In this document: piece by piece, positions 396 to 1,573 of the stretch | How the letters are laid out: every line of letters begins with the position of its first letter | How positions within the stretch are numbered: the first letter of the stretch is position 1 | DNA from: a virus | Length of the DNA stretch: 23,245 nucleotides | Virus record (IMG/VR): IMGVR_UViG_3300047557_003752 | Span: 1-23,245 of that record | Direction: 5' to 3' (one strand) | Position numbers and translations under genes: made by a program | The notes under the pieces: generated by a model | What the model was told of the DNA's origin: nothing | Databases searched by the model: none | The model's input: the letters and a program-made list of their open reading frames with translations, nothing else

Positions 396-403
396 GATAA
401 ATA
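396..403 (+). promoter_or_regulatory. Late promoter octamer GATAAATA
   Basis: GATAAATA sits 24 bases before the ATG of the gene at 428. The predicted +1 near 409 would give a leader of about 19 bases holding a GAAGG ribosome binding site. It is divergent from the minus-strand octamer at 346-353. Confidence 0.7.
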
Positions 404-427: not shown

Positions 428-775
428 ATGAAAGCAACAGAAATTTTTGAGGGGTATGAAAAAGTTAATATTGATTACAGCATTCAAGAAGCTTTGCCTC
501 CAACAATAAGTGTCCCTGATATGGATCAGTATTATGAATATTACAGATTTCTTGTTGCAATTGCTGGTCAACCTGAATCAGCAATACCACTACAAGGTCC
601 TATAGCTGACGGTACTTATATCGCGCCATATACCAAGCAAGAAATGGAACATGTTATAGACGTTTTAAATAAAATGGGTAAAAAACATAACTTTGTCACG
701 AGAAAACCCAGTATTGAAACAAAAAATGTAAATAAGAAAAGCCCAGTTCGCGTGTTTAAAGATTACGATGAGTAA
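428..775 (+). CDS. T4-like phage hypothetical protein, stand-alone ALPPT/KSPVR module
   Basis: This 115-residue protein has no recognised enzymatic domain. It is clearly related to the N-terminal 115 residues of the next gene: both open with MK...IFE, carry an ALPPT motif followed by a V-P step near residues 22-31, a tyrosine-rich segment (YYEYYRF here, YMQYRH there) and end with KSPVR-x-F. Proteins with this arrangement recur in T4-like phages, to my recollection without a known function. It is transcribed from the late promoter at 396-403 and lies 6 bases upstream of the next gene, so the two are almost certainly co-translated. Late expression suggests a virion or assembly role. The start ATG is preceded by GAAGG about 11 bases upstream. 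It looks soluble, with no membrane segment or signal peptide. Confidence 0.75.
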   Translation: MKATEIFEGYEKVNIDYSIQEALPPTISVPDMDQYYEYYRFLVAIAGQPESAIPLQGPIADGTYIAPYTKQEMEHVIDVLNKMGKKHNFVTRKPSIETKNVNKKSPVRVFKDYDE

Positions 776-781
776 AAATTC

Positions 782-1573
782 ATGAAATTAAAAGATATTT
801 TTGAAGCAGACGAATCAAGATTTGATATTGAAAATGCATTACCACCTACATATGTAATTCCAAAATTACAAAGTAGTGACGCATATATGCAGTATAGACA
901 CTCAGTTGCTATGGCATCCGCATTGTCACGTCAATCTATTGGCAAAAAGCAAAGTATATGGGGCGAAAATCAAGCAGTTGTATGCTATGTTGATGCAGAA
1001 AAAGAGATTTTAGATATAGCAAATAAAATTATGGGGGTTGAAAGTATTCCTTTGAGCAACACTTCAAGTACTGAAAGCAAGAGTGTTTTTACAAAAAGCC
1101 CTGTAAGAAAGTTCATGGATATTACAGAATCAAAAGACATGCATTCAGAAAGTTCTTATGGCACAATAGTAAAGGTTGACTTAAATAAAGAAGTAGCAAA
1201 AGATCTATACAATTGGTGTGATACTAACGGTATAAGTTGCATTCAACCAGACAAAATGCATTGCACATTACTTTATAGCAAAATACCCGTAAAAAAACTT
1301 ATGCAACTTAACGGTCTCAATATTAAACCATCTGCGAAAATTTTAAACTGGAAAATGCTGGGACGTGCATTAGTGCTTGAGTTGGACTGTCCTGTTTTTC
1401 ATGTTGTTCATTCTTTTTGTAAAAAACATGGGGGCATACATGAGTATGATGAATATATCCCCCATTTAACTGTGAACTATTCTTGGGATAAACCACCCCC
1501 AAAACAAATTCCTAAAATAAACTTGCAGTTTAGCAACATAAAAATTGAACAAATAGACCCAAACTTTGGGTAA
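782..1573 (+). CDS. Fusion: phage ALPPT/KSPVR module + 2H phosphodiesterase (Acb1-like) domain
   Basis: The 263-residue product has two parts. Residues 1-115 repeat the module of the preceding gene (ALPPTYVIP at 19-27, YMQYRH at 35-40, KSPVR at 105-109). Residues 124-263 form a 2H phosphoesterase: the first histidine motif is H160-C-T162 followed by LLYS, the second is H228-L-T230 followed by VNYSW, and a SYGT strand at 125-128 begins the domain. This spacing and the LHxTLLYS-type signature match the anti-CBASS nuclease Acb1 (T4 gene 57B product), which hydrolyses cyclic oligonucleotide signals; other 2H enzymes (LigT/CPDase) share the motifs, so Acb1 activity is inferred. The Acb1 family is usually about 150 residues without this N-terminal extension. 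It is co-transcribed from the late promoter at 396-403, which would be late for a counter-defence enzyme. A terminator hairpin follows the stop at once. Confidence 0.82.
   Translation: MKLKDIFEADESRFDIENALPPTYVIPKLQSSDAYMQYRHSVAMASALSRQSIGKKQSIWGENQAVVCYVDAEKEILDIANKIMGVESIPLSNTSSTESKSVFTKSPVRKFMDITESKDMHSESSYGTIVKVDLNKEVAKDLYNWCDTNGISCIQPDKMHCTLLYSKIPVKKLMQLNGLNIKPSAKILNWKMLGRALVLELDCPVFHVVHSFCKKHGGIHEYDEYIPHLTVNYSWDKPPPKQIPKINLQFSNIKIEQIDPNFG

Follow-up and report, generated by a model that had tools for sequence, protein, structure and literature searches.

A predicted Acb1-type enzyme fused to a phage-specific module in a contig related to giant T4-like phages, and its possible delivery from the virion

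Acb1 of phage T4 (gp57B) is the founding nuclease directed against the cyclic oligonucleotide-based antiphage signaling system (CBASS), and its activity is first seen some 15 min after infection, in keeping with CBASS itself setting in late (PMC9117128). T4 also uses short N-terminal peptides to carry internal proteins into the prohead (PMC9026906; PMC3012670), and its prohead protease gp21 removes these targeting peptides by cutting after L/I-x-E (PMC9026906); Alt is cut after ITE-6 and LTE-619 (PMC5694885). Here, both systems are compared with one gene (782-1573, + strand) of a 23,245-nt stretch of viral DNA (IMG/VR record IMGVR_UViG_3300047557_003752; the window), in which an Acb1 domain is joined to a phage-specific N-terminal module (N-module). 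The window's DNA polymerase has relatives on contigs, up to 518 kb long, from giant T4-like phages. The fusion gene has an ATG start and is an exact open reading frame (ORF) of 263 residues, read as a single uninterrupted 789-nt frame. Each of its parts is of a known kind, and it is their arrangement that is new.

The C-terminal domain and its active site

Like the Acb1 proteins of T4 and FBB1 (PDB 7t26/7t27), the window protein has the 2H fold, the HxT/HxT tetrad and counterparts of W74, F107 (as Y), E141 and W147 (as F), but it differs from them in an extra 126-residue N-terminal part, I129 in place of Y12, an N-terminus resembling a capsid-targeting sequence (CTS) and an I-x-E motif in the linker. 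Residues 127-260 (1160-1561, + strand) match Pfam PF23474 (Acb1) at 72 bits, against a cut-off of 27 bits. The protein also matches the PHROG family that includes T4 57B (PHROG 755) at 2e-19 and the solved Acb1 of phage FBB1 (7t26) at 4e-9, scores well outside what chance would give. Profiles of the LigT type stayed below threshold (LigT_PEase, 13.4 vs cut-off 23.3; TIGR02258, 19.3 vs 65.7), and the Pfam search gave no match to the Phage_portal_3 domain. An AlphaFold model built with 24 sequences had predicted local distance difference test scores (pLDDTs) of ~97 across most of the Acb1 domain and below 50 at linker residues 103-123. When a structural aligner was run on the chains ranked highest by Foldseek, the nearest fold was Acb1 7t27 (Z 17.1, root-mean-square deviation 2.0 over 132 residues), followed by a Burkholderia phage phosphodiesterase (Z 14.8) and then LigT (Z 11.3). 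A scan of GTDB genomes with a close Acb1 alignment returned no relative.

Using the T4 Acb1 residues described in PMC9117128, the catalytic tetrad could be mapped by alignment as H44 to H160, T46 to T162, H113 to H228 and T115 to T230. Both motifs named in a preliminary description of this DNA, H160-C-T162 (1259-1267, + strand; followed by LLYS) and H228-L-T230 (1463-1471, + strand), are seen in the translated ORF. The base-stacking positions W74, F107 and W147 correspond to W190, Y222 and F262 and are thus aromatic at all three, and the adenine contact E141 falls on E256 in an ungapped local alignment. Two observations count against this assignment. The fourth base-stacking aromatic, Y12, is lost (I129), as it is in the relatives L004 and G007, which likewise carry I; this contact lies outside the catalytic tetrad and was not taken as defining alone. 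Moreover, E141, though retained here, is not kept in the nearest relatives, and most close relatives have K, Q or N at this position, so adenine preference may differ within this Acb1 clade. Taken together, profile, fold and most ligand residues back the Acb1-like 2H identity first proposed for the protein, with Acb1 rather than LigT as the nearer fold and with E141 and three of the four aromatics retained. From sequence and fold, we predict with high confidence that the C-terminal part is an Acb1-type enzyme; judged by homology, fold and active-site residues, it would hydrolyse the cyclic di- and trinucleotides that serve CBASS as alarm signals.

It appears improbable that this 2H phosphoesterase acts on a different substrate, such as RNA 2',3'-cyclic ends or cyclic nucleotides outside CBASS, possibly repairing RNA together with the product of the kinase/phosphatase-like gene next to it. 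The 2H fold is common to Acb1 and LigT (2',3'-cyclic phosphodiesterase), the family is often annotated as RNA ligase, the next + strand gene matches a polynucleotide kinase PHROG at 1e-7, and Y12 is replaced; against this reading stand an Acb1 profile score far over its cut-off with LigT_PEase under its own, a fold clearly closer to Acb1 than to LigT, and the largely retained base-stacking and E141 positions.

Origin of the fusion

The N-module (residues 1-112; 782-1117, + strand) has a stand-alone paralogue at 428-775 (+ strand; 115 aa, starting MKATEIFE/G, the slash here and below marking a known or putative cut), which would open the late operon to which the fusion gene also belongs. An own-genome search and alignment showed the two to be homologous (1e-9; 37% identity over the alignment), which confirms the preliminary claim that the module also exists as a separate gene just upstream. 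In L004, the closest relative covering the locus, paralogue, N-module and acb1 are three consecutive genes and acb1 has its own start (MRLLELFDPK). Profile searches recovered the same unfused order in L163/L168 (a 453-kb contig), L188 and L216, which with L004/L090 makes four lineages, and other relatives carry the first two genes without acb1. Given these four lineages with all three genes unfused, the most plausible origin of the window protein is that the neighbouring N-module and acb1 genes merged in frame, which left no stop codon between them and, relative to L004, dispensed with the first part of acb1. The proposed fusion of acb1 to the phage-specific module directly upstream is thereby supported for this one contig.

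We consider the fusion very probably genuine. Its confinement to one contig speaks against it, as a search of IMG/VR with the full-length sequence turned up no other fused copy. An in-frame internal ATG at M120 also sits where the stand-alone Acb1 of L188 starts (MNESHEHGTI vs MHSESSYGTI). Both points would suit an assembly or sequencing artefact, or a gene that is not expressed as one protein, yet such an explanation is very unlikely: the frame is open throughout, the join differs from L004 by a stretch of codons and not by a single base, and the M120 ATG shows no Shine-Dalgarno pairing (at 0.2 kcal it is below the median for internal ATGs). Since M120 thus has no ribosome-binding site, Acb1 is unlikely to be translated separately from it, and one fused product is the likelier outcome.

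Members of the N-module family occur in 15 of the 44 related giant-phage records, and most begin M[KR]xx[ED][IL][FL]E. Several relatives have the module, singly or in tandem, but no acb1 with it, and in G002, G005 and G026 it forms the N-terminus of another protein that has a cytidylyltransferase-like part (Pfam tested for G002); by these sequence comparisons it is a reused N-terminal module. PADLOC and NCBIfam returned nothing informative on it and PHROGs no significant family. Modelled alone, it reached a pLDDT of 64, and neither solved structures nor viral ones gave a significant match, a result that says nothing on its true fold; the best viral structure row was a cytidyltransferase-like phage protein (E 0.1, insignificant), and Bacillus phages gave a weak match to the module (E 0.2). 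A linker with mostly low model confidence (residues 93-125; 1058-1156, + strand) leads on to the Acb1 domain. It contains a second L/I-x-E motif at the module boundary, I114-T115-E116/S117 (1121-1129, + strand), found in the sequence and compared with the linkers of L164, L170 and L190.

Downstream, the fusion gene is adjoined by an S-adenosylmethionine decarboxylase gene (1609-1989, - strand; Pfam AdoMet_dc, 80 bits), and L004 can be read similarly downstream of its acb1. The gene at 2074-2922 encodes a protein whose N-terminal region is basic and whose C-terminal part resembles a polynucleotide kinase/phosphatase (PHROG 415), and is preceded by an ATAAATA late-promoter-like box at 2041-2047. 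At the polymerase loci of the relatives (L042-L082), many matches exceed the query length or split near residues 540-635, which looks like inteins or insertions.

Capsid-targeting-like N-termini and the route into the virion

The fusion protein begins MKLKDIFE (782-805, + strand), with a putative prohead-protease cut after E8 (I6-F7-E8, as MKLKDIFE/A). It was compared with the T4 internal proteins ipII and ipIII (MKTYQEFIAE/A) and with Alt (MELITE/LFDE), as read from the T4 record, the criterion being an L/I-x-E site within ~20 residues of the N-terminus. The likeness to these proteins consists of a short N-terminus with L/I-x-E ahead of a protein possibly delivered together with the DNA, and extends to T4 ipI, which counters host defence; past the N-terminus, no sequence similarity to the T4 internal head proteins or Alt was found, and packaging of the window protein is predicted from its sequence. 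A strict CTS-like pattern matched 78 of 2071 ORFs of the relatives, compared to 7.1±2.6 after shuffling, with many homologues counted repeatedly. In the 518-kb relative it matched 9 of 586 ORFs vs 1.8 shuffled (0/300 shuffles), and in another relative 6 of 179 vs 0.3 (0/300 shuffles). Among 19 N-terminal extensions of stand-alone Acb1 proteins, [LI]xE was present in 11 vs 5.1 shuffled (p 0.0014), a p-value that is indicative only, since the set was put together by hand from previously encountered sequences and contains related proteins. A T4-type (S77, gp21-type) prohead protease is encoded in four relatives; no head gene was identified in the 23-kb window fragment, which was not scanned for this protease. 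A broader pattern ([LI]xE[ASG] in the first 18 residues) was discarded as unspecific, being less than 2-fold enriched in T4, G002 and G005.

With a CTS-like N-terminus of the T4 type and prohead-protease-like sites, virion delivery is plausible. The protein would enter the prohead via MKLKDIFE, and a T4-type prohead protease would cut after E8 and possibly after E116, the latter cut freeing the Acb1 domain. The enzyme would then be ejected with the DNA and hence be present when CBASS is triggered. On sequence patterns and analogy with T4, we rate packaging and injection of the fusion protein as only slightly short of an even prospect.

Several points weigh against this route. The CTS motif is a short one: applied to T4, the strict pattern finds ipII and ipIII together with two proteins not known to be internal to the head, which suggests that roughly one hit in two may be false. 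Relatedness among the sequences is not accounted for in the shuffling tests, and both the pattern and the set of extensions were picked after the data had been inspected. The N-termini of Acb1 from T4, ZZ1, L188 and L196 carry no L/I-x-E site. As T4 Acb1 acts late and lacks such a site, packaging is not needed for anti-CBASS action.

Timing was also examined at the promoter. An ATAAATA box of the T4 late-promoter type lies at 397-403 (+ strand), 31 nt upstream of where the operon's first gene starts; seven of eight relatives have the same box, at -12 to -39. Across the window, the heptamer shows no excess over chance (8 found vs 13 expected), and four of its six + strand copies lie 11-33 nt ahead of a gene start. 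The preliminary description had used a late promoter as an argument for packaging; the box is indeed present, but it makes a weak argument, given that Acb1 of T4 too becomes active late in infection. Late synthesis would also suit an Acb1 made in the infected cell as in T4 and never packaged, with the N-module as passenger, stabiliser or recruiter of a partner of the neighbouring proteins. We regard this as a serious possibility, though appreciably below even: T4 Acb1 protects from CBASS without known packaging (PMC9117128), a late-promoter-like box precedes the operon, and the N-module exists without acb1 in several relatives. Conversely, related phages show an excess of CTS-like N-termini, as do the stretches ahead of Acb1 domains, and Acb1 is fused in other phages to portal proteins, which are virion parts.

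Related N-termini were seen elsewhere. In Aeromonas T4-like phages (Aeh1, L157:198-692; phiAS5, L198:248-745), gp57B starts MLKSFSEFTEA or, as in phiAS5 Acb1, MIRSFSEFITEA, and these starts closely resemble T4 internal-protein targeting sequences. In G002 (200-221 kb; L129:139-12195, L130:175-1434), the products of a gene run before the DNA polymerase share CTS-like N-termini; the run includes Pol-beta-type and cytidylyltransferase-like proteins and could represent a set of injected enzymes.

Acb1 within larger phage proteins

The preliminary description regarded known Acb1 as a compact single-domain protein, which does not hold in general, as fusions with portal proteins, with DUF6267 and cytidylyltransferase-like domains, and within a polyprotein were found. 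In G007, G009 and many related contigs, a protein of 739-749 residues carries Acb1 at its C-terminus along with the DUF6267 and cytidylyltransferase-like domains. In L190:87-5939, it lies mid-way inside a 1951-residue open frame whose repeated units begin QLNELFDF. This frame also holds parts that, by eye, look kinase-like and acetyltransferase-like, and L-N-E or I-N-E stands before the repeated units, as if it were a protease-processed polyprotein.

In Ssp-JY40 and Pam3 the portal C-terminus is Acb1 (Pfam tested), and by annotation portal-Acb1 proteins also occur in Rhizobium and Pseudomonas phages. More widely, Phage_portal_3 proteins that end in an Acb1 domain were observed across several groups of phages (L239:406-2271 from Pam3, L160:235-2094 and others). 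The 621-residue Pam3 portal sequence is deposited as PDB 8hds with 12 chains; 12 portal chains per virion would mean 12 copies of Acb1. Because Acb1 is fused to portal proteins, a virion-attached Acb1 has precedent. These fusions share with the window protein a C-terminal Acb1 in a larger phage protein; they differ in that their partner, the portal, is a certain virion part, whereas the partner in the window protein is a small phage-specific protein. DSS3P8 and phage ZHS have Acb1 copies annotated as "prohead protease"; these matched Acb1 but none of the protease families, and were rejected as protease fusions. No paper describing packaged Acb1 or portal-Acb1 fusions was found in the literature searched, which largely excluded subscription journals and preprints.

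Overall, we tentatively propose, with somewhat less than even confidence, a virion-borne form of anti-CBASS defence in which giant T4-like phages would pack Acb1 in their heads via a CTS, as a fusion here and as a polyprotein unit elsewhere, while other phages would carry it on the portal. If Acb1 is indeed present in the virions of phages other than T4, the alarm signal could be destroyed from the first moment of infection, before any phage gene is expressed. This would change how early CBASS can act and would add a new role for head-internal proteins.
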